The notes under the pieces were generated by a model. The model was not told where the DNA came from, did not search any database, and saw only the letters and a list, made by a program, of their open reading frames with translations. 64,000 nt of DNA from Bryoerythrophyllum caledonicum (Eukaryota; Streptophyta; Bryopsida; Pottiales; Pottiaceae): positions 24,756,754 through 24,820,753 of the forward strand of contig OZ020520.1 in the NCBI GenBank assembly GCA_963971425.1, read 5' to 3'. Numbering within the stretch: position 1 is the first letter of the stretch; every line of letters starts with the position of its first letter. The translations under genes and the position numbers were made by a program. Below are positions 31,637 through 64,000 of the stretch, piece by piece.

Positions 31637-32400
31637 ATATTGTAAGAATTGTCTTAAGACCATCATGTTCATACAAAACAATTTCATGGAAATTGTTTTT
31701 ATATACATAAAGGAATGCTCTTGTATTGTCTAGAAAAGACCAATCCCTTTCCCCCATATTCTAGAATGTTTGCCAAATTTTAGAACATCTTGGATTGAGC
31801 TGAGAGTTTTATAGCACAATCTAACTTGAATCAAAATCCAACTCAACACATTCTATTGACATTCAAGAGTGGATGAAGGAGGAGCATGTCCTTGTAGTTT
31901 TAGTCATTCAAAGTGTCAAAAGAATGACATTGTTTTGTGCCTATAGAGGTTTATGTAAGGCAATCATGCCTATAATATGAAGTGCTTACCAACTAGTATG
32001 CATTATATTGCTTATTGCATCAAGCACTTAACTAAAAAGTACTTCCATAATTTGAAAGTGGATCGATGAAGTATATTTTGCATATATGGTCTTTGTGAAT
32101 GACATCCTATGGACGTCCTATCACTTTGTTTTATATTGCTCTATTATATTGTTTTTTTTTCAAATTGAAGTATGGAAATTTAGCCTTTTAGAGCCACTAC
32201 GTCTTTAAATCTACAAACTAGGTTTATCCTTTCTTTTCCAACCTTTCTCCATTCTCTTTTCTTCAGATTTATTCTAAATCTTCGTTGATCCTTTTCTTCA
32301 TTGAAAACTAGTTTTGTGCTTTGCTTTGGTCCTTTTTCTCATGTTGTACTTTGGAGCTCCATTTAAACAAGGACAACTTGAGAAAAAAAATTTCCATAAA
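31637..32400 (+). repeat. repeat X, right part
   Basis: The sequence is co-linear with 51870-52640. Shared words include ACAAAACAATTTCATGGAAA, GAGAGTTTTATAGCACAATC, CAAGAGTGGATGAA, TTGTAGTTTTAGTCATT, AAGCACTTAACTAAAAA and GTCTTTAAATCTA. The family is not identified. It is non-coding and could be an LTR-like or MITE-like repeat. Confidence 0.75.
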
Positions 32401-35400: not shown

Positions 35401-37015
35401 TGGCCTAATACAAGGTGGAATATACTCCAAAAATATTATGCAATGTGTAGTGGAAAAATATGCCATTATCTTGAGTCAAAGTACACTAAGCATGTCCACA
35501 CATGAAAGAAAAAAACCATGAAGCACTTTGTAAATGCATGTATCTTACAATTCATGTGGTCCAAGTTTACGAAATGTTTTGAGTGTCTTCTCGTAGTAGT
35601 TAACTTCAAGATTCTACGGTTGAAAATAGCAAAATATTGTTTGAATTAATCTTATAATATCTCATCTTATAGGGGCAATTTTGGAATGGTTTTGGTGAAA
35701 CATAGTCAAATTCCTTTGGGGGTTAAGACAACTCAAATTGAATTGTTGAAGTTAAATCATTTCAATTGACTAGATAGATTAATAAGAGGTTAGGGGCTGT
35801 ATAGAGTTATTTAGAAAATTAATAGAACTCTCGTCGTCCCCGACATGGCAAGGGCAATCCACAGTTAAGTACTTGTATGTAAATGCAAAAATCAAACACT
35901 TGATATTTACCTTATATACCCGTTTAATATTCCGATACCCTAAGCTTCATTAGAGTAATTGAGATGGCTTTGAGCCCTTTTTCGACTATCTTGCTAGATG
36001 TCTCTTTGGACTGCATGAAGCAAATTTTGTATGGTGATTGTGGGAGTTTTGGGTTCCTAGACATGGAGAAACATCTTACATGATTGTGAGCTCTCTTGTT
36101 TGATGGAGAGATTTCCGCAAGTTGTGGCGGTGTGTGCAGGCTCTATGTTATGGATGCACAGTTTTGGTGACTTGATGGCGATTGCAGACAAAAGAGAGCA
36201 TGTTGTGGTTCTCGTTTTATGTCAAGTAGTAGGTTTACAATGAGCATCTTCTTCGCATCACGGTTCATTGTTTCTCCATGGCTATGCAATTTGACAACCA
36301 TAGTAACACATGTGGGTGCAATGTATGACATTTGAAATTCAATGTACATATGAAAGATTGTGGGAGCTCGCACATCAATTTGGTGGTGTTTCATGCAGCA
36401 AGAAGTTGCAACTCCTGCTACTTTGTATGTCAGAGGTTAATTGACCTCTTTCATCTCGAATTTCAAGCACTATGTCTTCGACATAGTACTTCGGATCAAT
36501 TTTCCTCGGGCTCTTTTTTGGGGAGCAGTATCCGCTTCTCGCTATGATCGTTAGAGTATAACCTGTATCTTTCAAATGCAAGATTTGCTGTCCAAATCCG
36601 CTTCTGGGCCTCCTTGTATGTGAAGGGAACCTCCAACTGTCGACGGCCTCCACCACCTTCTTCAACGTCGAGCTCGCTAGTTCACCTTATCAACACGACT
36701 TCTCCCTTTGATCCTCAACCTCTACTAACATAATCCATACTTACATCCTCGTAGTACATCGGATATCTACCGGGTAGCTTTATAGGGTTTTGGCTGAATT
36801 CATTATGTAAAAAAAAAAATTGGGAGTCTGTCTCTAAATTGCATATATCATACTCTGATGTTTAGTTCGTCAAAAAATAACTTGAAATTTCTTTGTTCAA
36901 ACTTTTGAGTTTACTTCTAAAGTTATGAATTATTATTCAATCGCAGGATGCCTATGTATACAATGAGATGGATGTATGTTATGAAAATTACGCACAACCT
37001 ATTAAGGAGCTAAGG
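32401..37015. other. AT-rich spacer left of LINE A, no intact gene seen
   Basis: I see no supportable gene. A GC-richer patch at 32890-33010 carries CCTATCC/CGGCACAAGATATCC words, and CGTCGTCCCCGACATGGCAA occurs at 35832. At about 35380-35740 the words AAGATTCTACGGTTGAAAA and CAATTTTGGAATGGTTTTGG suggest a further eroded copy of the foldback-type repeat. A minus-strand open stretch at 36375-36665 (96 codons) has mixed composition but no recognisable motif. Confidence 0.4.
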
Positions 37016-37022
37016 AGATGGT
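37016..37022 (+). repeat. candidate target-site duplication, left of LINE A
   Basis: AGATGGT here is repeated at 48690-48696, immediately outside the LINE's 3' end. LINE A and LINE B sequences start to agree at the very next base (TGTGTGAGGTC versus TGTGTAAGCTC), which supports the boundary. Confidence 0.6.
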
Positions 37023-37173
37023 TGTGTGAGGTCCGAGATTTCTGGTGAGGGGAGGTGGTATGACTTAGCCGCAAAACAGAGGTTTAGGAGCAACAAGAGG
37101 TAGCTAGCCTTGTTGAGAGCTCCCCCGTGCATCTATCTTGCGATGTAGGACTGGTCGAAATGCAGAGAAGATT

Positions 37174-37510
37174 GGAAGTAACTCACAAACGTTAGATCTG
37201 GGCTGGTGATGCTGAAAGAGGTAGCTAAACATTAGATCTGTGTGAAGCAAGTCTGAAAAGCGGGGAGCTTGTGTTGGTCATATAGATCTCATACCTTAGA
37301 AGCCAGATCTGGCCCAGATCAGGGTGCTACAAGCAAGATTGCTTGAAGAAACTCATAGACGTTCACTCGGGTTAGTGAGATCGGAGTGGTATATGGATAT
37401 GTGATCTGTGCGGAGTGTACTAAAAGCGTGGGACTAGTGTTGGCCACACAAGTAACGCATCCTTATCTCAGTGGTCAGATCTGCTCCAGACCGAAAAAAT
37501 TTAGATCTGC
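37174..37510 (+). repeat. tandem ~170-bp leader monomers of LINE A
   Basis: GGAAGTAACTCACAAACGTT (37174) and TGAAGAAACTCATAGACGTT (37344) start two imperfect units. Both contain GTGATCTGTG/TTAGATCTGTG words, an AAAAGCG-GGGA-CT-GTGTTGG segment and CAGATCTG words. Such monomers often carry LINE promoters; that role is inference here. Confidence 0.6.
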
Positions 37511-38205
37511 CACAGTCCTACAAGGTCTCTCCGTCCTTCCTGACCCAGATACTCAAGTTTAGAAGTCATTGGAGAGAACAACAACAGTTTCCTTATCCCA
37601 GCTGACAAAACGACAAGAGCAACACCACAGTAGGAAGGAGCGACAACCAACACAACAACGAGATCGATCGACTACGGAACATGACACCATGCCATCTTAA
37701 CTCCTTTCCTGCTTGCACACCTTATTGCCTTCTCATTTTCTCTCTTGACTTATCACATCTCTTGCCTTGTTTAGTAGATTTCTCTGTTCCTTGCTTTGTT
37801 TCTTGTTATGTTACTTGCATTGCTTCTAGCACCCCTCCTAGAAGACAAAGATGCACAAGAAAAGATCACGACGGCAACCTCCTTCGGACTATACGAGCCC
37901 CACCCACACACGACCAGACTCCACGATCAGCACTGACGTCAAGGATACACAACAATCAGTAGACGTCAGCACCAAACCCTGGCGACACAAACGAGACATA
38001 CAGACCTCCGCCAACCGTGAAGAAGATCAATAACTCCGACGCCCCCCACCAAAGGCAACATGCATTGAAGACTCTACAAAGATCACCACATGGAGCACCA
38101 ACAACCAACCTTGCAACCCGACTCAACTAGAACGAGCAAAACCACATAGGTAAGCACACGATCCGACACACTGTTACTAATCAAACGCCTGCAGGACCGG
38201 ATCGG

Positions 38206-38832
38206 GTGCTCACCCGATGTACCACAGACTCGAAACCCCCGGGAGTGGCCTTTAGTAAGCAACAAACTCGGCGTACAGGAACTCTAGCACCAACAAGAGC
38301 AAGAAGCGGCAAGAGCTACTCGTATGAGGAGCCATTACTCAAGAGTCCAAACTTGAAGGAAAGCCTGTTACGAAGAGGTAAAAGACCAGGCTATAATTGC
38401 GGAGCCGGAAGCAGCTGGGGACGCCTGTTACAGAAGGGTCTAGGTCTAGGCAGTATACACCGGAACTTGGAGGAGAGCCTGCTACGCAAGGATACAAGAC
38501 CAGGTTGTAAGAGTCGAGCCAGAAGCAGCTGGGAACGCCTGCCAAAGAAGAGTCCAGGTCCAGGAAGGAAACAACGGGCTGGAAGCAGCTTGTTACCAGC
38601 ATCAAGAATTGTTGCCCTCAAGGTGCTAGGAGAGGAGGGAGACTCCAAGATAAGAGAAGGGAGCACACTAGACGCCAAGTGCCACAGTCGATATACACAA
38701 CCTCTTCAATCACTAGAAGAGGACAGCTCAAGTCACCATCCACGGCCGCCAAAGGTGAGCTATCCACATGTGCTAGAGTCTACTCCAAATCATAACGAAG
38801 CCACATCGACTCTCCTTCCAGGCTCCAGGTAA
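38206..38832 (+). other. 208-codon open stretch in LINE A leader with 114-bp repeat
   Basis: This Arg/Lys/Ser/Gly-rich open frame contains two 38-residue units, beginning ESLLRRGKRPGYN and ESLLRKDTRPGCK. The DNA period is 114 bp (38362 and 38476), a multiple of three. I cannot see a counterpart in the LINE B leader, and no domain is recognised. It may be a leader peptide or simply repeat-derived. Confidence 0.35.
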
Positions 38833-38885
38833 GTCCCCTCAAACATCTCATTCAAACGTTCTGACACCAAAAGAACAACCAAATT

Positions 38886-40571
38886 ATGAGTAAAAGGAGC
38901 ATTGTGTTTGATGAAGAGATGGACGTTGACGTTGTGGATGAGATCAAAGCAATAGCTCCAAAAGAGAAAGGTTCGAGGAAAATCACAGAAGAAACCGGGA
39001 GCAGTAAGAAGAGCAAGAATGCCCAAGGAGACAAAGGTAAGTCCACTAAACCATTACCACTAACTACAGACCTCAATCTATGGCTAGGTTTTTAAGTCAT
39101 GGAGCGCATTACAATAGAAGAAGGAGTGGAAGCCCCAACAAGCGAAGAAACGACAGAAGAAATGATGGCTAGAGGATTCAAAGCCAACGAAGCTGAGGAG
39201 GCAATGGAAGCTAGAGTGGCATTCCCACGGATCCCTCAACCACTCTACCCATGCATGAGGAAAGGAGCACAAGATCATCACTACAACATTACACAAATTC
39301 CACTAGATATCAAGACCAACGAAGCCACAAGTTTGGCCTTGGACTTCCATGTTGCAATTTTCTTCGAACCTCCCATCAATGTTGTGTTGCATGATGATGT
39401 TTACAACATGATAACTAGAAGACTTTAATTAATGGACATCAAACTATGCACGAGTCTAATTGACCCTATCTACATTCAATGTCATAGTGTCAAAAGAGGA
39501 GGTAAAAAAGGAGTATGGACGGCCCGGATGTTAAAACTACACTTACTTAACCCCGACACGGATGGTCTCATGTTGCTCAAAGGCCTTAGGCCCTTCATAC
39601 TTGCACTAGACAACCATAAGGTCATTGGTAAATTGTACAAGATTTATCATCATACGGCTAACTCTACTAACCTTTCCGTACGCATTGGAAGTGACTCATT
39701 GATAGGTATCCCGGTTCACCAACTCTTCATGGATATCCTCAACAATAGCTTCAACCGAGGCCAAGACTTCGAAATCACGGGAGTACAAAAGGTTATTAGC
39801 GACCCTCATGCCTTCATCTCCACGACCACCCCACAAGAAGCTTTGAAGATTCAACTCCATCAAGTTACAACTCAACACGAAGTCCTTCAAGCAAAGAAAA
39901 CCTCCACCGGGGGCCGTATGACACCTGAAGCAAAGGCAAAAAAGGATGCCCTCACTCTCACCCTATCCCCCTTGCCCATCCTTATGAGTGTTGTTGACAC
40001 CACTAATGCCATATACAAAGTACTAAGGAATGATAATACTAAAAACATATGGTTTCATAAGGAGAATGGTGAAAGGCATAATGGGAGTGCAAATGTGGAA
40101 TGTGCTAACCCCATCGTGTATAGGAACTTTGTGAAGAAGACAATCAAAATTGGAGGAAACCACGTGGATTTGGCCCCACATAGGAGGAGTTTGGAAGGAG
40201 TGGAGCCACCAACTCAAAAACAAGTCGAAAGCTTTGGGTTTAATGACATCAACACTGCCATGGTTAACACCGTTGCTACATTCAAAATCCAAAATGCCCC
40301 CACGTCCACCAATACTAATGTCACGAAGAAAGACCTTGAGGATGCATTGGAAGAAAACAACAAGAAGATGAGGAAAGAGAATAGAGAATACACCGACAAG
40401 CTTCATGAAGAACTTGTTGCTCAAATGGAAGGCATCCAAAATTCCATGCAAGCTACCATTGAAGCCATGAGAGCCATCAAAGAAGAGTCAAACCAAGATA
40501 AATTGAAGACACACCCTGAAACATGTGAAGAACAAAGACCACACGGTAAAATATACTTACCACTATTGTAG
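38886..40571 (+). pseudogene. LINE A ORF1, unrecognised nucleic-acid-binding candidate with C-terminal coiled coil
   Basis: One frame of about 561 codons is interrupted only by TAA at 39093-39095 and TAA at 39426-39428. LINE B has CAA at the first position, so that stop is a C-to-T change. Blocks shared with LINE B ORF1 mark a conserved protein: FPRIPQPLYPCMRKG, LALDFHVAIFFE, LRPFILALD, NSFNRGQDFEITGVQK, AKKDALTLTLSPLPI, WFHKENGERHNGSANVEC and HRRSLEGVEPPT. A Lys/Glu-rich heptad region (about the last 90 residues) should form a coiled coil, as in trimeric LINE ORF1 proteins. There is no RRM, CCHC knuckle or PHD-like pattern. The N-terminal 70 residues are charged and probably disordered. Its role by position is RNA binding or chaperoning of the LINE RNP; this is inferred from ORF order only. 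Confidence 0.65.
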
Positions 40572-43500
40572 ACATAGTATCTCATATAGTATAATACCAA
40601 TACTATGCAAGTACATGAGTATTGTATATCAATATTGTACCTCTCAAAATACTCAATACAATTACAGTATACTACTCACATGGCCCAAAATACATACAAA
40701 TACAAACACTAAATACATACATGTACATAGATATACACATACAAATATATATATATATACATGAATATACAGTCACACATACACCTATATACATACTTAC
40801 ACACATACATATACATACAAAATCACACACTCTTACTACCATGAATACCAAAACATATACACAAATATACATAGACACAACAAAACTCATATACAAAGGT
40901 ACATACAAACGAATACCCAAACAAACACACACCTTCACACACACATACATACATTCACCTACACAAATACAACCACAAAAGCAAACAAATACACCGACAC
41001 GTACATTGATATACATACATACACATAAACGTACAAAAACCGGCACACAAACATATATACACTCGAACATACACATAAACACACAAAATAAATCCACAAA
41101 CACACATACCCACATATACACACGAACACAATCACACAACAAAACATGCATGCATAAACAACAACACAAACACACTAACCCATATCCACATATAAACACA
41201 CGACCACTCACACACTTAAAAAAATATATAAACACAACCCATGTAGGTACAAACTCAAAGACAAACATAAAACCTTATCAAAAATACTACACACAAATCC
41301 ACAAAATAATCTGCAAAGATACACACCCAAATATATTGCTCAAAATCATAATAAAAAAAAAAATCACAACAAATCCCACTAACAAAAACATACACACGTA
41401 CATAATCCAAAATACTAAAACCAAAAACATAAAAACAAAAAAATACCATAAATACTCACATAATCCATTAAACCAAAAACTACACATTAAACCCTCACAC
41501 TATAAAATCCTACTATTACGAAGTGGAGATATTGAAACTAATCCGGGACCTATGCCTAATATACTAAAAAAGACATCCCACTACACATAAGAAAAACGCC
41601 AAAATATACTTTATCCCAAACACCATAAAACTACAACCGGAATACAAACTTATTGCTCAGACATTCGCACCTTTTTTTAAAAACACACATATTTCACATC
41701 AACTACACAACACAACACAACCAAATATTGTCCAATACATACAACAAAAACATACGCACCCACCCACACATATCCTACACCACCCACCCAAACATAGACG
41801 GATGTAACCGTCTCTTGGATACACAGAACCAAAATATAATTACATGGCCTAATACACTACTACAAACCTTATTAAACTTACAAAATCCACCAGAAAGACA
41901 TATTCAGACTCCACACCCTTATACAAAATTCCTGGAACGAAACCTAAATACCATAAACCACGGAAACTCAATACTTAAAGAACTATACGACTTCCTACAT
42001 AGTCAAAACAACCCACCCTCAAACAACACAATAAAACAAAAATTTCCCTATCTTCCTAACAAACTAATTAATGAATCACTCAGATGCTTTGACCCCATAC
42101 CGGAATATATCCAATCACCCCCTCCACCCTCCTACCTTCCTCCACAGAACCAAAATATTTACTCCAACAATGAAAACACATACATGATTACATGGAATGC
42201 TTCATCCCTAAACACCGCTCTCCCTAGTTTACAAACCTTGGTCACAAAAACAGCCATGCCACTGGCCGTCATAGCAATACAAGAAACCAAAATATCGGCC
42301 ACTAAATCCACAAAATACATACAAAACTTATTTCAAGACTACAAACTTATTTTTAATAATATACATGCACTAACAAGATGCATCCAACAACCCAGACCAT
42401 ATACACCGAGCCGTGGTGGCCTCCTTACACTAATACACAAAAAATACGCTTTTTCGAGCAACATCAAAAAATTCCTACTTCATTAAACATATCCCCCTGC
42501 CTACAAATAATCAAAATTATGAATCAACCACTACAACCATGGTTGATCTTTCACATGTATATGCCCTCACACCCCAAAGATACTAGACTTATCATTGAAA
42601 TACAAAATACTATTACATCTCAAATAAATAACAACCCTAACCACACCCACATGTTATGTGGAGATTTCAACAGAGACACAACGTTAATTGGTAGACAAAA
42701 CGAAAACCAAAACACTCCCCCTCAAAACATAGACTATTAATGGCACATCTTTACAGAAAGTTTGAACCTCACCTACATAAATACCAATACACAATACTCC
42801 CGACAAGGCGGATATAATTATGGCAACTGGAGCCTAATAGACAGATTCTACATAAATACAAACAATAATACACAGTACACCTCCACAACAAACAAAGACA
42901 TTAGCCTCAACTCAGACCACTCACCCTTACAACTCTACATTCCCGACAACACACTAATTAGTCGTACCCCCACAACTACAATCAATGACACCACACAAAT
43001 AGTCAACCCCATCCCAAAAGATAACTTAGAGAAATTCAACACAAATTTCTTTGAAGAGAATTCCACACAAATTGACTCCCTCATAAACACTTTTGAGCAT
43101 AATAATCAACTCTCTCAAACACAATCGCACGAGACATGCCATACCCTAGATATACTCATCAATAATATCTCCAACACACTAGAACAAACATGCAAAGCAC
43201 AACCGATACCAAAGGTGACAAACCACACATCACAACAAGGCAGATACCTACCCCATAAACTTGCTAAAACTTGGAAACAACACCTAGACACATACCATGT
43301 AATACAAAAAAACCATTAGAATTGTAAAAAATAACCTCCAATGGCAAAGTCACCCCATATGTAATGAATTACTAACAATACAACATACCCAAATCCCTAC
43401 CCCACCCTCTCCAGACCTTCCACATGATACATGGATAAATGATATTGCTAAAATAGCAAAAAATGCCAATAAACAAGCCCAGAATATCACTACAAAATAT

Positions 43501-46500
43501 ACCAAGGAAAATATCAAAAAAGCCATATCAAAATATAGACATCTATACGAAATATGCTCTAAAAAATAAATAGAAAAGTCTTTAAACACACTGAATCCCC
43601 ACCACTAAATTGTATCATCGACCAATACAATAACATTCTAACTAGCCCACACGACATTGCAAACGAAATATTTAACCAACAAGTAAAAAACAATAGACCC
43701 ATAGTACCAACATGTAACTACCAACCACAACACCCAATCAGCTGCACGTGTGCTGTACGGCAATATCCATGGCATGACCTAGATGGTTATACCTTAGACA
43801 AACGGGGCCAATCCGAAACCCCACTACATACATACTTTAACAAAACCACATACGACACATGCCTTTGAAACCTTGGAAACAACAAAGCTCCAGGGCCTCA
43901 CCAAGTACCAAATTCAATACTAAAAAACATGCCCTCTAGATTTCATAAACTACTATCCCTATTCTTCTCCTACTATGTTACAAACAAAAACAACTACCGG
44001 ACACATGGAAAACAAGCCTAACAATATTACTATACTAAAAAGGAGACCCCTCAATACTATCCAACCACAGACCAATCACACTAGCTAACACAATCTACAA
44101 ATTATACACTAGAACATTCATGTACATACTATCCTCATACGGGAAAAAATTCAAAATCCTACACCACAGTCTAGAAGGATTTAGAGCAACAAGAAGCACA
44201 TCCAGACAAATACAAACCATAATTGCCGCACTCGAAGATGCAAGATTTACAAACTAAGACATATATATCCTTTATATTGACTTCAAAAATGCCTTCGGTT
44301 CTATAGACCACGCTAGATTATTGGCAATAATGACAGTTCTTGGCTATCCAAAGGATGCAACCGCATTAGTTGGAAACATTTACTCTCAATCAACTACCCA
44401 CTACATTGGAGAACACTTCGGAAAAACCAAACCCATTCCCATTCAAAGAAGAACTATACAAGGGGACACCCTCAGCCCATGCCTATTCATTATATTCCTA
44501 GAACCACTACTCAGATGGCTAGAGAGAGGGAATAATGGATACACATTTGGTACCTTACAAACCACTATAAATTTAGCCGCATACGCCAATGACCTCGCGA
44601 CCATAACCAACAAAATAAAATCACTACAAACCCAAATCAATAAAATCGACGGATTCTGTAAATGGATTGGTATGGAAGTAGGAGTCTCTAAATGTGTTGC
44701 TATTGGATGCCCAAATAAATCCAAAATAAACCCAACCACATTCAAAGCCATAATGCAAGCTTCTTTAACATCAACTTTAGGAACCAACCAATCCCTATAC
44801 TACACCAAAATGAACCATACGTATACCTAGGCACAAACCTAGTCCCATCACTAAAATGGAAAATCCAAATTCATAGCACAACAACAAAACTCATTAAACA
44901 ATGCAAAGATCTGACAACATGCCCAGCTACTATGAAACAAAAAATAAAAATGGTTGACAGTGTACTACGACCAGGGATAGCATACAGCTTCTATGCAGTA
45001 CCATACTCTATGCGAGCCATCAAAAAACTAGACCAAAAAATTATAGCCATCCAAAAAACCATCTGTGGTATGCCTAAATGTATGTCAAACGCGATAACCC
45101 AACTCCCACAGAATCTATTTGGCCTGGAAGCCTTCTCCCTCAAAAATACTTACCTCAGATGCATAGGCGAACAACTACAAAATGCTCTAAACAACAAGGG
45201 AAGACTCGGGAAAATATATACCGGGCTAACTCAATATGTCCTCGCTCAACACAGTGGAGCCAAAAATATTCCAAGAATTAAAAAAACGGATTGCACAAGA
45301 TCACCAATAACCCGTACACTATACCTATTAAAACACATAGCTAAAGTTCACCTCAAAAGCACACTTCCAAACTTCCTCCTCGATCCCACACCATTAGAAG
45401 TATCATGGCGCCAAGAAACACAAAACCATATTACAATCAATCCCCAACACTCCAAAAAACTACGACAAAAATTCATTTCAATTTTTTTTTGGGAATTCAA
45501 ACAAACTACCCTTCCAAATGGCACACACATCATGAACAACGAAGACTTCAAAATCTACCACTTTACCCCATCCAAACTAATTGAATGCGCCCTAAATATT
45601 GCCAAACAACTCTTTTGTCGACCAACATGTCCAACAACATGCAATACCCCTTGCCTCATACACCCATACTCACATAGATTTGAAGACCCATACACCCGTA
45701 CTCACATAGACTTGAAGACCCATACACCACTACCAACAACAACAACTCCACAAGAAGTCCTCCCCAAGAAATCCACCCCCCAACCCGACACTACCCTTTC
45801 ACTCTCGGCCTCCAACAAACCTCCCTAAGAATCCCACCCTATACCCCATTAACAAAATAATACACCATAATCACATACAACGTAAAGATATCAACAACAT
45901 ACAAAACACAAAAACCAAATACCTATGCCAATGGCAACACAACAACAACACATTTAACAAATGGCTCCCTCAAAGAAACCTCTTTCCGAGACACGACCAT
46001 AATACCTCCATCCACAACATCGAGAAACTGAAACAATACTATCAAACGATCCAAAATAAAATTTACTTCAAAATCATTCAAACCCACCACCCCAAGACCA
46101 ACTCCAAGACACAAGATCCGTAATTCCACCAATAGTTATCCCACTCCTAAGCATCCATACTACAGAATGTAACCCCGAAAATGATATCCTCACAATCTCA
46201 AACACAATCAAAATAGACAACAATCTAGCACACCTATATGAAGAAAGTGGCTGACATCTACAAATAACATAGAACAGTCATACTTTTCCTCCCCTATCAC
46301 ATGCCCCACCAAACTACTAAAATTCTACTCCCCATTTGAAAGAAATAAAATATTTGGTTCTCTAGGGAAAGCCTTCGATCACAAATGGATAGGTAATGAT
46401 ATAGCACATCTCCACAACGAAGACGAAACACGACAAGAAATACACTGGGCACGCCTCGTTGCCAAAAACGACCCAAACCACACATCTACACTCATCATCA

Positions 46501-48380
46501 CCCCAGATAAAAATTGGTACCAAAACTTTAAACAACAAGGTAGCCCATTCCCAGACTCTCATACCATTGTCTTATTTGAAGCAGACCTAATACCATACGA
46601 AGAATTCACTATCCCACCGGAACTAAAAAGCCCCGAATTGAACCATCCACACTACAAATAATATGTGTCCACCACCAAAATCAAACCCTCAGCACCCAAG
46701 AACAACTAGAAGAACTTTCCTCCATAGCAAAGACTTTAAACATACACCGGCTATACACAAAAATAGCCCCACAGACACCTATGCAAACATCCGTCAACAA
46801 AAATAAAAAATGGTCAAAACTAAATTACAGCAATAATACACTAAATTACATCCTAACACAGCCACCCCTCCCGGAATACCAAATTACCACCCCACCCAAA
46901 TTTGACCCCGCATATAGCTACTGTACCGATGGCTTCCTCAAACCGCCAGAACAAATTAGCCCGGGTAACTGGCACAGAGAAAAAGTGGGTTATGGAATAT
47001 ACAATTCTACGAAAGAAATCAAATTAGCCAAAAGACTACACGGATTGCAAAATATCCTCAGAGCATAACTCATGGCCATCCACAAAACACTCGAAATTAT
47101 CACAACAAAATACAACAACAAACCAACGCACATATTCACAGATTGTATTAACGCACTATACTTATTAAACACTCAAATAACACACCCTACCCTCCACAAT
47201 AGCCACCCCAACCAAATCATCTTAGAATCATTGGTCCAAATGATACTAAAATGAAGACAAATCACAACCCTCCACAAAGTTCAAGCCCATGCCAATATTG
47301 ATGGTAATGAGCAAGCGGATAAACTAGCAAAAGAGGGCCGAGAAAAATGGCACAAAAATGCCAAAGATCCACACAAACACGCCCACGCCACCCCATACTA
47401 CTTCCAGAAAGATGACTGGCCCTCCAAAGAAGACACCCCCGATAAAGGCCCGATTAGATTCTTGAACAAACACCTTAAAAAACAAGACCTATATAACAAC
47501 CTTGACACAATCTCAGACAACCTCCCTAACATAGAAAAACGGACTAGTAATAACATTATAGACAATGAACTCTTGACAAATTTCTGGAAAAATCCCATCA
47601 TCACCGACTCACAAATAACATGCCTTATCAAATTCCGCACCAGACAATACATGGGAAACGCCCGAAAACAACTCTTCTTTGGTATAGAAAGATTCCCATC
47701 CATAACATGCCCGATATGCACTTCCACAGATCCCGACACATGGCTACATGTTCTTCTTAAATGTCAAAACCACCATATACACTCTCAAATTGTCAAGAGC
47801 ATAACTAAGCCATATGGGAAATCCAAAAATTAATCATCTCCCATAACAAATTGAGATGCTTCATCCTCATGAATGCCGGCACCTTTAATAACAACCCACA
47901 AGAAAATACGGTGCCACCATGGCTACTCCTATGTACATGTGAAACCCAACGATGCCACTGTAATGCCCGATTCAAACCGGACATACTTTGCGTTAGAGAC
48001 CTACCATACAACGACTCCCCACCCGACCACATAAATCAAAATTACACCATTCAATTCATCGAATTTACTTACTGTAATGAGAGATTCTCCCCTAAACAAT
48101 CGAAAAAAAAATCAGTAAGTACCAACCCCTTATCGATGACATAACTACCCTCGGATGGAAAGTGGACCCCCTTATAGTAATCACAGCCGGCGCCCAAGCC
48201 ACCACCTTTATTCCATCTATGAAAACCCTAGAAGACACCTTCAAAATTCCTATTGATACAATTACAAACACTTTCAAAAACATTAACATCATTGCCATTC
48301 AACATGCTATGTCCATCTTTCTACATAAACGCAAAATTGAAAAAAACCAAGCCCTTCCCGAGACACAAGATCCCCCGTAA
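40525..48380 (+). pseudogene. LINE A ORF2: 2A - AP endonuclease - RT - RNase H - CCHC - restriction-like endonuclease
   Basis: The frame starts overlapping the ORF1 end, is broken by several frameshifts and stops, and ends at 48378-48380. Order: Thr/His/Tyr/Ile low-complexity leader (40622-41520); 2A motif (41525-41551); linker; AP endonuclease about 42184-42960 (TWNASSLN, IQETKIS, GDFNRD, NSDHSPLQL); RT about 43880-45000 (NNKAPGP, DFKNAFGSIDH, QGDTLSP, AYANDL); RNase H about 46918-47340 (YCTDG, FTDCINALYLLN, HANIDGNEQADKLAKEG); CCHC finger 47708-47764 (CPIC...H...C, spacing C-x2-C-x9-H-x4-C); and a PD-(D/E)XK-like domain 47968-48330 (RFKPDIL, IEFTYCNER, KISKYQPL, GWKV, VITAGAQA). The RT motif C reads AND where LINE B has ADD, so this copy has lost a metal-binding Asp. 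The RNase H Glu position is TAA here. Reverse transcription by target-primed copying is the family's function; this copy cannot perform it. Confidence 0.75.
41525..41551 (+). other. 2A-type ribosome-skipping motif, LINE A
   Basis: Codons read KILLLRSGDIETNPGP then Met. D-(V/I)-E-x-N-P-G/P preceded by a Leu-rich, G-ending stretch is the 2A (StopGo) consensus, in which the ribosome skips the Gly-Pro bond and releases the upstream peptide. Here it would split the low-complexity leader from the enzymatic part of ORF2. The identical core GDIETNPGP occurs in LINE B. Confidence 0.8.
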
Positions 48381-48689
48381 ACTTTCTCTTTGCTTTATTT
48401 TTAAAACACATGTAAACACTCCCCCCTTACCGTCTTCCCCACTCCCCTTCCACTTTCCCCTCTCTCTCCCTCCCCCCCCCTCTCTCCCTCCTCCCGTGGT
48501 ACTCTTTGATTGGTTGATTTTGTGGTTTTTTGGCTACTTGTTACATAGTGTCTACCCTCGAAAGGGGGAAGTAGTTCCAGCTTGCTAATTCCCTGTTCGG
48601 TGGACTTGGTCTTAGTAGTGGAACAAACGGACACTTTATTCACGCCTGCCTCTTTTGGAAACCGGCGTTCTTCTTCTTCTTCTACAATA
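48381..48689 (+). other. LINE A 3' UTR with C/T-rich tract and TTC tail
   Basis: Non-coding. A tract of CCCTCTCTCCC type at 48420-48500 is followed by GGCGTTCTTCTTCTTCTTC and the end ACAATA just before the second AGATGGT. There is no poly(A) tail; short 3' microsatellite tails are usual in several LINE clades. Confidence 0.6.
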
Positions 48690-48696
48690 AGATGGT
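48690..48696 (+). repeat. candidate target-site duplication, right of LINE A
   Basis: AGATGGT, identical to 37016-37022. Confidence 0.6.
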
Positions 48697-51644: not shown

Positions 51645-52640
51645 GTGGTAATAAATTTTGGATGTGAAATTTCAACTATATAGACTTCTGGTACTAGTTA
51701 AAGATAATGTGGATCATATTTGAATTCATCAAGTCATTTAAATTAGAGGATCATAATGTTTCATTGTGAACATTTTGTCTTGACATTTGGTTGTTGACAC
51801 TTAAAATATAGATACTAAAATCAAATCTTCTTCAATAAGATGATCTTTACTTACAAAATTGGAAAGAATTGTCCTAAGACCATCGTGTTTATACAAAACA
51901 ATTTCATGGAAAATTGGTTATTAGCATAATCAAAATGCTCTTGTATTGTCAAAAAACAACCAAATCCTTATAAAGGGGAAATATCCCAAAACAAGCCTAT
52001 TCTAGTGTTCAAGAATGCTTGCCAAATTTTCACAAGATATTAGATTGAGATGAGAGTTTTATAGCACAATTTAGACTTGAATTCAAATCCAACTCAAACA
52101 AATTCGATTGAAATTCAAGAGTGGATGAAAGATGAACACTCTCTTGTAGTTTTAGTCATTTAAATTGTCAAAAGAATGACATTTGGTGCCCTAAGATGTT
52201 CAGGTAAGCCATTCATGTCTATCAATATGAAGTGCTCACCAACTATGCATCATTGCCTATTGACTTAAGCACTTAACTAAAAAGGACCATACTTCATAAA
52301 AAGTAGATTTATGTAGTATATTTTTCATGTTATATGGTATTTTGTAAATGACATCTTACATTGCATCCTATTATTTTATTTTATATTGCTCTATTGCAGT
52401 GTTTTGTTTAATTGAAATATGAAAAGTTAGCCTTTTAGAACAGCTGGGTCTTTAAATCTAACAAGCTCGGTTTATCCTTTCCTTTCTAGTTTTTCTCCAT
52501 TCTCTGTTCTTCTTATTGATTCAAAATCTCCCTTGATCCATTCCTCCGTTGAAATTACTTTTGAGTTTTTCTTTTAGTTTTTTTTTGTCATGATTTACTT
52601 TCAAGATCTCCATTCAAAGAGGGACAACATGAGAAACAAG
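51645..52640 (+). repeat. repeat X, uninterrupted copy (paralogous empty site of the 13-kb element)
   Basis: The left part (51645-51800) matches 18430-18628. The right part (51870-52640) matches 31637-32400 in the same order. About 60-70 bases without the terminal inverted repeat lie between them. The copy therefore lacks the 13-kb insertion. It ends about 120 bases before the start of LINE B. Confidence 0.7.
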
Positions 52641-55247: not shown

Positions 55248-56922
55248 TTGCCTAACCAAGTGTATGAGTACGACGTAGATATGGAACAATGGGGCAGTAG
55301 ACGCACCTTCATGTATGGAGACGCCATGGAGATTGAAGCATCCGGTGACAAATTCAAGAGATCACCAAGCATTGCCTCTACAACAAGCCAAGATGGAGTA
55401 TCCTCCTCTAGCAAGAAAAAGATGAGCTCCAATGATGAAGATATGATGCACACAATTGACCCCGTTGTCTCTTCTTTCAAATTTTGGTTAGGATTTCAAG
55501 TCATGGAAGATATGGCCAAGGAGGTGGGACTCAAGCCACTTAGCAACGATGAATCCATACCCGACATGGTAGCGAGAGGAATTAAAGACATGGAGGCCAA
55601 AGAAATCACCCTAGCAACTCCGGCATTTCCACGAATCCCCCAAACCCTCTACCCTTGCACAAGAAAAGGAGTTGTTGGACAACACCTCAATATAACTCAA
55701 ATCCCGTTCGACATCCCGGTTGATGAAACCACCGGACTTGCCCTTGACTTCCATGTTTCAATATATTTTGAGTTATCTAACCTTGTGCTCATGCACGATG
55801 ATGTCAAAGCTTTGGTAATTGACAGGTGAAAATTCATGGAGATTGAAGTTGGCAGAAAGGTAATTGACCCGATCTCCATCCTTTGCATGAGTTTGAAAAA
55901 TGCGAGAAAAAGGGGGTTTGGGCGGGTGTAATTAAATTGCACTTGCATAAGCCCAAGATAGATGGCATTGGACTTCTCAAAGATTTTAGACCTTTTATCC
56001 TAAAACTAGACAAACAATATGCTGGTGGCAAAGTATGTAAGGCTTATCATGATATTTCAAAAAACTCTAACCTCTCCACCAAAATCAAAAGTGAATCCCT
56101 TAAAGGCATGTCGGCAAATGATCTTTTTGTAGAGATCCTCCAAAATAGTTTTAACCGTGGGCTTGAGTTTGAAGTAACAACTGTGCAAAAACTCAAGGAA
56201 GAATCTCATACTTTTATTATTGCACCAACTCCCCAACAAGTGGCAAAGATCAAGCTACACAAAGTGGCAACCAACCATGAGCTCTTGCAACCTACGAGCA
56301 ATGATGGAGCTTCATCAATTGGCACTAATCGTGAGAGTAAGGCAAAGAAGGATGCTATTTCCCTAACCTTATCCCTATTGCCTATTCGTATGAACATGGT
56401 AGATACTAGTGAAGAAATCCACAAAATCATGGGAGTGGGAAATGCCACCCACATTTGGTTTCATCGTGATGATGAAATTAGGCACAATGGTAGTGCTAAT
56501 GTCCATTGCATCAATCTATAATCTATAGGAAATTTGTGGGTAAAGTTATCAAGATAGGAGGAGACTACGTGGAGTTTGCACCACACCAAAGAAGTCTTGA
56601 TGGAGTCGAGCCACCCACCAAGGACCAAGTTGCGGAGTTTGGATTCCTAGATGTCAACAAAGCCATTGTTAACACCTTGGAGGCCTTCAAGATGGAAGAG
56701 TTGACAAAGAATGACATCATTGTCATTGTGGAGTCCAAGGTGGAAGAAAACAACAAGAAGGTAAGACTAGAGACACAAGCGTACGCGGACAAGAAGCATG
56801 ATGAATTGAAGGCCCAAATGATCACCATCCAAGAGTCAATGAGCACAGCCCTTGCATCCTTGCAAGCCATCACCAAAGTTATGACCACCCCAAGAATTGA
56901 AGATAGGAAGTCAAACATGTGA
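55248..56922 (+). pseudogene. LINE B ORF1, frameshifted
   Basis: Three open blocks follow LINE A ORF1 in order: 55248-55829 (ends in TGA), about 55883-56521 and 56506-56922. Frameshifts lie near 55880-55900 and 56515. Shared blocks include FPRIPQTLYPCTRKG, LALDFHVSIYFE, KKGVWAGVIKLHLHKP, NSFNRGLEFEVTTVQK, AKKDAISLTLSLLPI, WFHRDDEIRHNGSANVHC and HQRSLDGVEPPT, plus a C-terminal coiled coil (VEENNKKVRLETQAYADKKH). The last codons are AAC ATG TGA, overlapping the ORF2 frame that reads GTG AAG from 56919. Confidence 0.65.
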
Positions 56923-59900
56923 AGATTGAAGATTGCAAAGCAAAAGGTATTATACACATACCACCCCTTCTTATATACAAGTTACACACACTTTGCAACC
57001 ACTACAATAGAAGGCAATACAAGGTAGAATACTTGATAGCTTACAAAGTTGCATACATAGTAGAATACATTGTATTGAACAAGGTGGATAAAGTAGTCTA
57101 CATGGCACAATATAAGAGTAAATATAGGGCAATATACATAGCTGTACACTCCCTAGGATATACATACCTCAATACATATATCCTATATTCATCCTGTATT
57201 GTAACAAAAAAAAATAAAAAAATTTATACCAAATATATATTATCTTGTACAAAAACGCCTGGTACAATTACTAATACTGATATAAATACTAATACGAATA
57301 CTTATACGAATATCAAGACGCATACTAATACGGACATACGTATGAATACTAATACAAAACCAAACATAACTACACATACACACACATATACAAAGACAAC
57401 TACATACCATCAAAGAAACACATACACATACACACACACATACAAAGACGAATACATACAATCAAAAAAATACAAAATCAAATACCAAAGCCACATACAA
57501 AAACAAAAAACTCTAAAACAAAACAAAAAACCCTCATACTACAAACTACTCATACTAATTGAGGGGGACATAGAGACTAACCCAGGACCCATGCCGAACG
57601 TATTAAAAAGACACCACGCTTCACACAAAAAGAATGTCAAAATATACTTTATACCAAATACCATAAAACTACAACCCGAATACGAACACATCGCCCAAAA
57701 ATTTGCCCCCCTTTTAAAAACCACACACATATCACATCAACCACATAATGACACATATCCATATATTTCCAGATATATGAACCAACACAATGGACACCCA
57801 CCATCCCACATCCTATATGCCCTAGTCATTACTATATACCCAAACATAGACCTCTGCAATCAACTCCTAAATACACAAAATTAGAACATAACTTAATGGA
57901 CCAATACACTCCTACACACTCTACAAAATCTACAAAATCCACCCAAAAGACACATTAGCATCCCACACCCTTACACAACATTTCTTGAAACTAACCTAAA
58001 CACCATAAACCACAACACATCGATAAACAAAGAATTATATGACTTTATACACAACAAAATACACCCTCATCAAATGACATGATAAAACAAAAATTCCCCT
58101 ACCTCCCAAACACAATAATAAATGAGTCAGTAAAATGCCTAAACCGCCTCCCGGAATACACACCCACCCCCACCGCCGAATCACATCCCATCACAAAACC
58201 ATAACCCACACACGAACAATAACAACGAGAGCATAATAACATGGAACGCATCATCCCTTAACACCGCGCTCCCAAGCTTACAAAACATAGTTATGTACAC
58301 TAACACACCACCGGCACTCATAGTTATACAAGAAACAAAAATCTCGGCCACAAAATCCACAAAATACATACAAAGATTATTTCCCGACTACAAACTTATC
58401 TTCAATAATACACATGCCCTAACACGATATATACAACAAAGAAGACCATATACACCGGGCCGAGGGGGCCTCCTCACTCTCATACACAAAAACTACGACT
58501 TTTCAGGCAATATTAAAAAAATTCGCACCCCGATGAACATATCCCCATACTTCCAAATTATGGAAATTTCCAATCACCCACTACAACCATGGCTAATCCA
58601 CCACATATACATGCCGTCCCACCCCAAAGACATTAGATTCACCGAGGACATCAAAATTAACATCACCTTCCATATTACCAACAACCCCAACCACAACCAC
58701 ATCTTATGTAGTGACTTCAATAGAGACATTGCCCTCATAGATAAACAAAACGGAAACCAACATACACCACCACAAATGATAGACCTACCATAGAAACATT
58801 TTACAGAAAACCTATACTTTATTTACATACCCACAAACACTACATACTCCAAACAAGGAGGATACATCTATAGCGACTGGAGCCTAATTGATGGATTCTA
58901 TATCCGTGCGACCAACCATAATACATTGACTTCTACAACAAATAACATTTACCTGAATTCCGATCACTCACCTGTACAACTCCACATTCTAAACAACACA
59001 CTCATAAACTGTACACCAACCACCACAAACAATGACCACATACGTATCCTCAACCCCATTCCACAATACAACATAGAATTATTCAACACAAAATTCTTTG
59101 AGGAAAACTCATTACGCATTGACTCCCTAACAAACGCATTAGAATCTAATAACCATCTTTCCCAAACTCAATGGCAACAAGCCTGTTACACTCTAGACAT
59201 ACTCATCAACAAAAATCCAACACAATTGAACAAACCTACAAAGCCCAACTCATACCACTAATGACAAATCGAACATTACAACAAGGTGGATATTTACTTC
59301 GTAAATTATGTAAAATATGAAAACAACACTTAACCATTTACCACTCTATACGAAAAACCATTAGTACCGTATATAACAACCTCCAATGGCGTAGCCACCC
59401 TATCCTCAACGAAATACAATATTCAACACACACAAATCCCAAATCCATCCCCCATACATGTACCTCACGACACATGGATAAGTTTATAACACTAATTGCA
59501 AAAAATGCCAACATACAAGCCCAAAAGATTACCACCAAATATGCTCAAGAAAACATTAGAAAAGCCATCTCAAAATACAGACAACTATATGAAACTAACC
59601 CCAAGAAAATAAATAGAAGAATATTCAAAACTATGAAATCCCCACCATTAGACTGCATCACCGACCAATATGACAATATACTAACTAGCCCAAAAGACAT
59701 TGCAAATGAAATATTAAACCAACAAACAAAAAACAACAGACCTACAGTAGAAACATGCAACTATCAACCGGACCACCCCACAACATGCACGTGAATAGTA
59801 CAACAATATCCATGGCACGACCTAGATGGATTCACATTAGAAAAAAGAGGAGACCCGGAAATTCCACTACACACATACATTAATCAAGCTACATATGACA

Positions 59901-62900
59901 CTTGCCTACGAAACCTAGGAAATAATAAGGCCCCCAGATTGGACTGGATACCGAACTCTATACTAAAAATATGCCCCCAAGGTTCCACAAACTATTAAAC
60001 CTCTTCTTCTCCCATTGCTATAAACAAAAACAAATTCCTACTTCATCGAAAATAAGTGCAACAATTCTACTATACAAAAAAGGAGATCCATCCATGCTAC
60101 CAAACCATAGACCTGTTGCATTAGCCAATACCATATAAAATAATTTACAAGCACATTCACATCAATACTATCATCATATGGCGAAAAACACAAAATACTG
60201 CATGATAGCCAAAAGGGGTTCCGTGCAAAATGAAGTACCGCTAGACAAATCCAAACAATGATAGCCGCATTAGAAGATGCACGCTTTACAAATCAAGACA
60301 TATTCATACTATATATTGGCTTTAAAAATGCCTTTGGATCCATTGACCACGCTAGGCTTTTAGCCATAATGACGGATCTTGGATACCCCAAAGATGCAAC
60401 CGCACTAGAGGGAAATATGTACCCTGAATTCTCAACCTCCTACATAGGAGAACACTTTGGAAAAACTAAACCCATAGCCATTCAAAGGGGAACAATACAA
60501 GGAGATACTCTAAGCCCATACTTATTCATCATATTCCTAGAACCACTACTTAGATGGCTAGATAGAGGCAACAATGGATACACATTTGGAACATCACAAA
60601 CCACCATTAACTCCACGGCATACGCGGATGACCTTGTAGCCATAACCAACAAAATCAAAGCTATACAAATACAACTCAACAAAATAGATAAGTACTGCAA
60701 ATGGACAGGAATAGATGTAGGTGTCCCAAAGTGTGCCATCACTAGATGCCCAAATAAATCAAAAACAAATCCTACCGCATTCAAAGCCCTAATACAAACC
60801 TCTAACATTAATTACCGAAACCAACCAATACCCGTACTACACCAAAACGAACCATACATATATTTAGGAACAAATATTGTCCCCTCCCTAAAATAGAAAA
60901 TCCAAATCCACGCCACCACCAAAAAACTAATTAAACAATGTAAAGAACTAATAGCTTGACCGGCCACTATGAAACAAAAAAGAAAAATAATTGACACAAA
61001 TTTAAGACCGGGCGTGGCATATAGCTTCTACGCAGTACCATACTCAATGCCCACCATAAAAAAACTGGACCAAAAGATAACGGCCACACAAAAAAACGTA
61101 TGTGGCATGCCAAAATGTATGTCTAATATAATAACCCAATTACCGCACAATCTCTTTGGACTTGAAGCTTTTTCACTAAAAAATGCATACCTTAGATGCA
61201 TAGGAGAACAATTACAGAACGCTCTAAATGACAACGGTAGACTTGGAACAATATATAGGGGCCTAACACACCACATCCTTGCCCAATATGGAGGGGCCAA
61301 AAACATACCCAAAATAAAAAAAGACGAATTGTACAAGATCACCAATAACACGTACCTTCCTCTTACTAAAACACGTAGCAAAAGTCCACTTAAAAAGCAC
61401 TCTCTCCAACTTTCTTATAGAGCCAACAACACTAGAAAAAGCTTGGACTCTTGAAACACAAAATCATTGTACATTCAACACACAATTATCTCAAAAAATA
61501 TTACAAAACTCCTATAAAAAAAAATCTACAAACTAAAACAAATCTCCCTACCTAATGGAATACACATCATGAACAATGAAGAGTTTAAAACCTTCCACTT
61601 CACCCCATCAAAACTAATCAAAAGTGCCCTCAAATTCGCACAACAACTCTTTTGCCACCCAATACACCCCTCCTCATACCAATACACATATGTACTCCCA
61701 TACACTTAAAGACCCATTCATCACTATAAACAACGACATCATCGCAAGAAATACCCCCCCACCACCGATACACCTTCACACCCACACCACCCCCGCCCCC
61801 CAAACCACATCCTCAAAAACCCCACCGCATACCCCATTAATAACATCATATACCACAAATACAAGGAAAAAATAGATAATAACCAAATTGAAAACAACTA
61901 CACCATATATTTATGCCAATGGATTCACAATAACTACACCTATAACAAATGGCTCCCCCAAAGAAACCTCTTCCCAAGACACAACCAAAACACCACTACA
62001 CATAATATCAATAAATTGACACGATATTATCAAAGAATTCAACACAAATTCTACACCAAAATTATTCAAGCTCACCACCTACAAAATCAACCCCAAGACA
62101 CAAGGTCCATCACCCCACCTATAATAATCCCCCTATTAAACATTTACACAACGAAATGTAACCCCGAAAACGACATTCTTACCTCATCTAACACAATTAA
62201 GACCAAGCACACCTGTACAAAAAAGATGGGCAACACCTCTTTACCATCCCAATCACTAGGCTCACATGGTTGTGGAACCAATACAATACTAAACTACAAA
62301 CCCCTACAAACATTGAACCAATAACTCAACCATTTGAAACTGAAGTCATTTGGATATACCAAAGATACAAATATAGAATACCAAAAATTAACCCCCTTAA
62401 ACTTACACAATATACACTACCCACACCTATACTAAACTCATTAATTTCAACATTCAACATATAACATTCATACTTCTCCTCCCCCCTCACATGCCCCACC
62501 AAACTTAACAAATTTTACTCCCCCTTTGAAAGAGATAAAATATTCGGATCACTAGAAAAAGCTTTTGACTACAAATGGATAGGCAATGGTATAGCTCACC
62601 CTCACAATGAAGAAGAAACACAACAAGCACTACATTGGGCCCGCCTCGTGGCCAAACATGACCCAAACCGCACCTCCACCCTCATCATAACACCCGACAA
62701 AAACTGGTACCAAAACTCTAACCTACACCCGAGCCATTTTCCTCACTCACACATCATTGCACTATTCAAAGCGGACTCAATAACATACGAAGAACCCACT
62801 ATCCCACCCGAACAAAAAAAACCTAGGCTTGAACGAGCTACAATACAAATACTACGTGTTCATCACCAAAACAAAACAATGGGAACCTCAGAACAACTCA

Positions 62901-64000
62901 CCACGCTCACATCCATAGCCAAAACTCTGAACATAAATCGGATACACACAAACATTGCCTCGCCCACACCCCCCCAAACACTAGTAAACCGTAACAAAAA
63001 ATGGTCTAGACTATAATAGAATAACAACACATTAAACTACTCAATGACAAATCCCCCTCTCCCTAATTACCACACAAATACACACCCAAAATATGACCCC
63101 ATACATAGTTACTACACGGATGGATCCTTCAAAGAACCGGTAGAAAGGTGACCTGGACACTGGCACAGAGAAAAAGCCGGATATGGCATACACAATCCCA
63201 ACAAAGAAATTAAATTAGCCAAAAGACTTCATGGACTTCAAAACATCCTCAAGGCAAAGGTGATGGGCATACATAAAACACTCCAAATCATCAACACAAA
63301 ATATGCCAACGAACCCGCACATATTTTTACGGATTGCATCAGTGTCCTATATCTACTGAACACACAAATAACACACCCTACTCTCTACAATAGCCACCTC
63401 GACAAAATAACACTTATATCCATGGTACAAATGCTACAAAATCGAACACAACCTACTACACTTCGTAAAGTGAGAGCCCACGCTAATATAGAAGGAAATG
63501 AACAAGCCGATAAATTAGCCAAAGAAGGAAGAGAAAAATCACATAAAAACGCCAAAGACCCATATGAACATGCACATGCCACCCCATACTACTTCCAAAA
63601 AGAGGATTGGCCCTCCAAAGAGGACACCCCGGACAAAGGCCTGGTCCGTTTTTTGGGAAAATATCTCAAAAAACAAGACACATACAATAACATTGACACG
63701 ATCTCAGAAAATTTCCCCAACATAGATAAATGGACCGGCAATAAGAACATAGACAATGAATTGTCTACAAATTTCTTGAAAAATCCCACCATTACCAATT
63801 CACAAATTACATGCCTTATTAAATTCTGCACCGGTGAATGTATGGGGAATGCCCGTAAACAACTCTTCTTTGGAATAGAACACTTCCCATCCATAACATG
63901 CCCCATATGTACCTCTACAGACCCCGACACATGGCTACATGTTCTACTTAAATGCCAAAACCACCACATACACTTCCTCATTGTTAGAAGACACAACAAA
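56919..64000 (+). pseudogene. LINE B ORF2, incomplete at window end and disrupted
   Basis: Frame open from 56919 to a TAG at 57882-57884, with the low-complexity Thr/Asn/Tyr leader (57240-57480) and the 2A motif at 57563-57589. Then: AP endonuclease about 58236-58985 (WNASSLN; IQETKIS; SDFNRD; NSDHSPVQL); RT about 59920-61050 (IGFKNAFGSIDH, QGDTLSP 60498-60518, AYADDL 60619-60636); RNase H about 63115-63535 (YYTDGSF; FTDCISVLYLLN; HANIEGNEQADKLAKEG); and CCHC finger 63899-63955. Frameshifts and stops occur throughout (for example a TGA inside the FRA-STARQ block near 60230). The motif A Asp is Gly, and the RNase H Glu is Lys. The coding sequence is more complete around the RT than in LINE A. 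Confidence 0.72.
57563..57589 (+). other. 2A-type ribosome-skipping motif, LINE B
   Basis: Codons read KLLILIEGDIETNPGP then Met, matching the 2A consensus. The upstream leader is largely different from LINE A's, but the 2A core and the following MPN-LK are kept. Confidence 0.8.

Follow-up and report, generated by a model that had tools for sequence, protein, structure and literature searches.

The described system that comes closest in design to the element reported here is the Dualen/RandI group, LINEs in which an AP endonuclease (APE) and a restriction-like endonuclease (RLE) are found together, according to the available parts of two accounts (PMC4640811, PMC3636483). The available text of the first also reports RNase H for Dualen, gives most RLE elements a shared insertion target, and uses dual-endonuclease LINEs to connect retrotransposons that encode an RLE with those that encode an APE (PMC4640811), and that of the second describes R2-group elements with a C-terminal endonuclease only (PMC3636483). 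As for hosts, a 2015 survey, in the portion available, places Dualen/RandI in green algae only (PMC4438587), and the excerpt of a 2025 paper records LINE/Dualen in cryptophytes (PMC12747079). Non-LTR retrotransposons bearing 2A sequences are described, in the accessible part of another report, from trypanosomes and, among other species, from sea urchin (PMC4981915).

The LINE copies in the window

The window, by which is meant the whole stretch of 64,000 nucleotides that was analysed, contains on its + strand, at about 36,972-48,682, a full-length LINE copy designated copy A, and a second, diverged copy, B, that runs to the window end. Their features are as follows.

36959..36971, + strand, 5' target site duplication (TSD) of copy A, 12/13 bases matching the 3' TSD
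36972..48682, + strand, LINE copy A, full length and decayed (TSD on both sides; blastn against intact copies)
38982..40478, + strand, ORF1 remnant (tblastn, E 9.9e-128; 44% identical to the C-terminal portion of an intact ORF1)
41444..48377, + strand, ORF2 remnant, 14 pieces in three frames (tblastn)
41525..41551, + strand, 2A-like GDIETNPGP near the ORF2 start (motif)
42190..42926, + strand, AP (EEP-type) endonuclease motifs (motifs, Pfam, PDB)
42190-42213, + strand, TWNASSLN
42277-42291, + strand, IQETK
42660-42677, + strand, GDFNRD
42912-42926, + strand, SDHSP
44057..44704, + strand, reverse transcriptase (RT; PF00078 3.4e-24)
46251..46640, + strand, PCIF1-like domain with AHLH at the NPPF position (PF12237 in relatives and copy B)
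46970..47341, + strand, RNase H (PF00075 1.5e-10)
47708..47764, + strand, CCHC finger C-x2-C-x9-H-x4-C (motif)
47968..48377, + strand, C-terminal putative RLE domain with KPD, E and K..KY (motifs, selection)
47968-47988, + strand, RFKPDIL
48058-48084, + strand, IEFTYCNER
48108-48131, + strand, KISKYQPL
48153-48164, + strand, GWKV
48180-48200, + strand, ITAGAQA
48381..48682, + strand, 3' UTR and (TTC)n tail, the terminal GC-rich stem decayed in copy A
48683..48695, + strand, 3' TSD of copy A, 12/13 bases matching the 5' TSD
55461..64000, + strand, LINE copy B, diverged (ORF1 match to CCHC finger), starting at or before 55,461

Copy A is dead, since its ORF2 frames are broken (14 tblastn pieces over three frames) and its RT box has AYAND in place of the AYADD of an intact copy; a frame break also lies inside its C-terminal domain, within the A run at 48103-48111. 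An earlier note on this DNA had proposed a LINE with two unrelated endonucleases, and every motif that it quoted was recovered on the + strand where it had been claimed, across three frames because the copy has decayed. The interval it gave proved too narrow for an element that occupies about 36,972-48,682 with a TSD on both sides, and neither the PCIF1-like domain, the 2A-like motif nor the abundance of the family formed part of its finding.

Copy B, about 73-76% identical to copy A in DNA over ORF2, also has GDIETNPGP (57564-57590), and the window end cuts its sequence just upstream of the C-terminal domain. Strand asymmetry is strong at the LINE copies (40001-48000 and 56001-64000), with a GC skew to about -0.5 and an AT skew of about +0.3 to +0.4. 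A further, separate group of direct repeats (81-94% alike) lies at 31644-32306 and 51864-52554 with a spacing of about 20.2 kb, and an Rfam search of the whole window at the gathering threshold gave 0 matches.

An abundant family with intact copies

The 437 Mb assembly (894 contigs) was searched for further copies. With the C-terminal domain of copy A as query, 6949 first-look candidates were obtained, and all 150 of those scored were matches, at 81-89% identity; 11 of the 150 lie in open frames of 2809 aa. A search for the PCIF1 family gave 2614 candidates, with 33 of 150 scored in a 3087-aa open frame by our own count, and a 17-base word from the 3' end has 2191 exact copies in the genome, its reversed control word having 0. 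Five full-length copies align free of gaps with 99.90-99.95% identity over the 12,578 bases that each spans between its 5' end and its 3' stem, and ORF1 is broken in one of them (c7a). The family is thus very abundant, and, since only 6-13 pairwise differences separate these five copies, its amplification is very recent. One intact copy (L049/L050) is flanked by LINE-like sequence of the opposite direction, recognized by eye from RT-like words, and seems to be nested. The earlier note had spoken of a plant genome, and family searches agree: the chlorophyll a/b-binding family is matched 58 times, and the NAC family 31 times at exon level, which we count as about 17 genes. The host is thus a land plant that photosynthesizes and has few NAC genes, a number that would point to bryophyte or lycophyte grade.

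The splitting of copy A into frame pieces might suggest that two adjacent elements had been mistaken for one. The 11 scored C-terminal places in 2809-aa open frames speak against this, as do the presence of every domain in the same frame of the one such ORF that was scanned and the single TSD that encloses the entire element. Two adjacent elements were therefore rejected as an exceedingly improbable reading, a single open frame carrying all of the domains.

In the intact copy C6 (L039 and L040), ORF1 measures 1229 aa between stops, and its first half is rich in proline; intact ORF1 had no match in Pfam or PHROGs, and by analogy with LINEs in general its product is probably a nucleic-acid-binding protein. 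ORF2 of C6 has 2809 aa stop to stop and carries, in order, the 2A-like GDIETNPGP, the APE, the RT, the PCIF1-like domain, RNase H, the CCHC finger and the C-terminal KPD...E...K..KY domain. GDIETNPGP is conserved in all four copies with an intact ORF2; in C6 it forms residues 460-468, the closest upstream Met being residue 426. Among these four copies (6 pairs, dS up to about 1.4), dN/dS upstream of the 2A region is 0.50-0.67, as computable in 3 of the 6 pairs. Because the first 430 residues of ORF2 look unconstrained, its true start appears to lie near the 2A-like motif, which presumably would serve in ribosome skipping. The stretch of C6 from the ORF1 stop to the 2A motif, about 1.2 kb, is A-/C-rich and unconstrained (41% A, 32% C, 7% G).

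The AP endonuclease that the earlier note had seen upstream of the RT is upheld. Its motifs are complete, its dN/dS is 0.06-0.11, and PF03372 matches residues ~690-930 of the C6 ORF2 at 5.5e-05 and 23.5 bits, just under the 24.5-bit cut-off; the copy in the window gives a weak PF14529 match (1.3e-4; 22.3 bits, below the cut-off of 27.4 bits), and there is a weak PDB match to exonuclease III (0.0012). The placing of RNase H and a CCHC finger ahead of the C-terminal domain likewise stood, with PF00075 found in both the window and an intact copy and the finger of the form given above. In an intact ORF2 the Pfam matches are PF00078 at 5.7e-26 and PF00075 at 1.4e-11, and dN/dS is 0.05-0.09 for the RT, 0.07-0.09 for RNase H and 0-0.13 for the finger. 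When the RT was compared with solved structures, R2 proteins scored 107, 93 and 92 bits, L1 66-68 and R2Bm 56-60; as pairwise scores rather than a tree, these would fit a lineage between R2 and L1.

Between the RT and RNase H (L040 5648-6052 in C6) sits the PCIF1-like domain, with a dN/dS of 0.08-0.18. PF12237 matched one intact ORF2 at 6.7e-10 and 39.3 bits, over the 31.1 cut-off, and was found in 6/6 aligned sequences, copy B included, in a scan that gave 43.5 bits against 31.1. A single sequence searched against the PDB did not retrieve PCIF1, and a profile of the domain gave PCIF1 (6irx) as the second of two matches at a non-significant E of 1.1, with F.SP..C and FGS.G aligned. PCIF1 is an mRNA cap N6-adenosine methyltransferase whose catalytic motif is NPPF. 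With the motif aligned by eye, NPPF is replaced by AHPH or AHPQ in the six aligned sequences and by AHLH in copy A, from which we infer a cap-related or cofactor-binding domain whose catalysis was lost with NPPF.

The C-terminal domain and its putative nuclease

The dN/dS of the C-terminal domain, 0.06-0.16, is near the values for the RT and APE and marks it as a selected part of the protein; the domain is real and under purifying selection in the intact copies. The earlier note had read it as an RLE of the R2 type. The motifs RHN, KPD, D/E and K..KY occur in the same order in three solved R2 proteins from the PDB, and GAR, judged by eye, is common to the domain and two of those three, copy A having GAQ. 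A written motif pattern, composed after inspection of both the ORF2 and the R2 sequences, fits three of the four intact copies (the fourth, with KPDM, misses) and arose in 1 of 20000 ORF2 shuffles, or in 0 with RHN added. Among 34 distinct sequences, derived from 39 copies of which 30 were best matches to the window domain, the key residues are retained as D in 33, E in 31, the first K in 34, the second K in 32 and Y in 34, with K at the catalytic E position in 3.

Direct alignments to R2 reached mainly the region ahead of the core. With hhalign, the finger and the RHNK linker aligned at a score of 21.0, above 200/200 column shuffles (highest 19.7) and at a probability of 2.9%, and the RLE core was left unaligned. 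Pairwise local alignment from the finger onward gave z values of 4.8 and 6.1 against R2Bm for two copies and 1.6 or less against the other two R2s, and core-only scores were weak (z 0.4 to 3.2). An HMM of the R2 RLE scored the four ORF2 proteins no higher than 300 shuffles.

The earlier note had named a missing PD-(D/E)XK hit as a result that would count against its claim, and the profile check of the C-terminal segment gave no such match: nothing was found for the domain in Pfam or NCBIfam, nor in the PDB with either a single sequence or a profile. One search each of viral contigs, bacterial/archaeal contigs and plasmids found no relatives. AlphaFold runs made without relatives gave no usable fold (pLDDT 42.7 and 33.8). 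The first model, of little weight at a pLDDT of 43, has the order strand, strand, helix, strand needed for a PD-(D/E)XK core, an order absent from the second, shorter run; when that first model was used to search for similar folds, none of the 57 matches reached E 0.001, and the best 50 of them included no PD-(D/E)XK enzyme.

The lack of any profile that identifies the domain as a nuclease is what an APE-only LINE would lead one to expect, its conserved C-terminal domain being a nucleic-acid-binding module that merely resembles an RLE; CCHC fingers, moreover, also occur in APE-only LINEs. Such a reading has to contend with the R2-like ordered KPD, E and K..KY motifs, whose key residues are near-invariant, and with the rarity among shuffles of the motif pattern, post hoc and missed by one copy in four as it was, and we consider it unlikely. 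The ordered R2-type motifs, the place after the finger and the selection on the domain together argue strongly for an RLE. Of the two endonucleases claimed for one LINE, the APE is supported, and the second is a putative RLE that rests on the selected domain and its motif order rather than on a profile match.

Insertion and comparison with known elements

The 3' UTR of C6 is about 300 bases long and ends in a perfect GC-rich stem followed by a TTC/TTCTCTC tail. Of the 16 copies examined, 10 showed a TSD, 10-13 bp long (6/10 large regions, 3/5 smaller regions and copy A). None was found for c6c, for the C7 and C11 small-region copies, for c7b (where a match lay only within the surrounding satellite), for c4 (3' tail not found) or for c10 (where the region examined stops short of the 5' end). 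All 10 TSDs start with T, which may be the final T of the tail; their length is uncertain by at least one base where tail and target agree, most of all for the C10 small-region copy, and the TSD of c3 is less certain, its 5' end being without independent definition. In the eight copies with both a defined 5' end and a TSD, 11-70 bases, different in each copy, separate the 5' TSD from the common 5' sequence GATGAACAC, possibly through template jumping or variable transcript starts.

The flanks of the insertion sites, compared by eye, showed no shared target, and the TSDs differ between copies. This is unlike most RLE elements (PMC4640811, in the part available), and might be taken to mark the RLE as a fossil, inherited from an R2-like ancestor and dispensable since the gain of the APE. 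The purifying selection on the C-terminal domain, close to that on the RT at a dS of up to about 1.4, led to the rejection of a fossil RLE, which we regard as very improbable. The reading that we favour, and hold to be likely, is of a two-ORF autonomous LINE with two endonucleases, similar to Dualen/RandI by design, into which a PCIF1-like domain without NPPF is built.

Insertion may be pictured as target-primed reverse transcription, for which the GC stem and (TTC/TTCTCTC)n tail of the 3' end would be the starting point. The first nick, of low specificity, would be made by the APE, and the finger and RLE would hold the target for a second nick about 12 bp away, an offset that would explain the narrow range of TSD lengths. 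The PCIF1-like domain, because it has lost NPPF, would most likely bind the capped 5' end of the RNA or a cofactor rather than methylate. That both endonucleases act in one insertion cycle, the APE in the first nick and the RLE in the second at a fixed offset, alongside a captured cap-methyltransferase-like domain that perhaps holds the capped 5' end of the element's own RNA, is put forward tentatively, as a scheme about which we are more doubtful than confident. Within a limited literature search of partly available sources, no report was found of a PCIF1-LINE fusion, nor of the three-way fusion of APE, RLE and cap-methyltransferase-like domain. A young, very abundant land-plant family in which both domains are strongly selected brings the role of each nuclease within reach of direct tests, and the PCIF1-like insert suggests that LINE replication may involve cap recognition.

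Set beside known systems, the PCIF1-like domain resembles the PCIF1 methyltransferases in its PF12237 match over the cut-off and differs in the replacement of NPPF. With 2A-bearing non-LTR retrotransposons, as described in partly available text, the ORF2 shares a D(V/I)ExNPGP core near the protein start. L1 has an APE only, whereas the present element has in addition what appears to be a conserved RLE-like C-terminal domain. R2 proteins are its best-scoring solved RTs, and the finger, the RHN linker and the PD..D/E..K order are common to both; in contrast to R2, characterized by one rDNA site and no APE, it has an APE and the compared insertion sites vary. Dualen/RandI, known to us by description only and from partly available sources, resembles it in an APE upstream of the RT, RNase H in ORF2 and, here after the finger, a putative RLE. 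Judged by that same description, the present element would differ in its PCIF1-like domain and 2A-like motif, and its host is a land plant rather than a green alga or cryptophyte, so it probably extends a dual-endonuclease design described mainly from algae.
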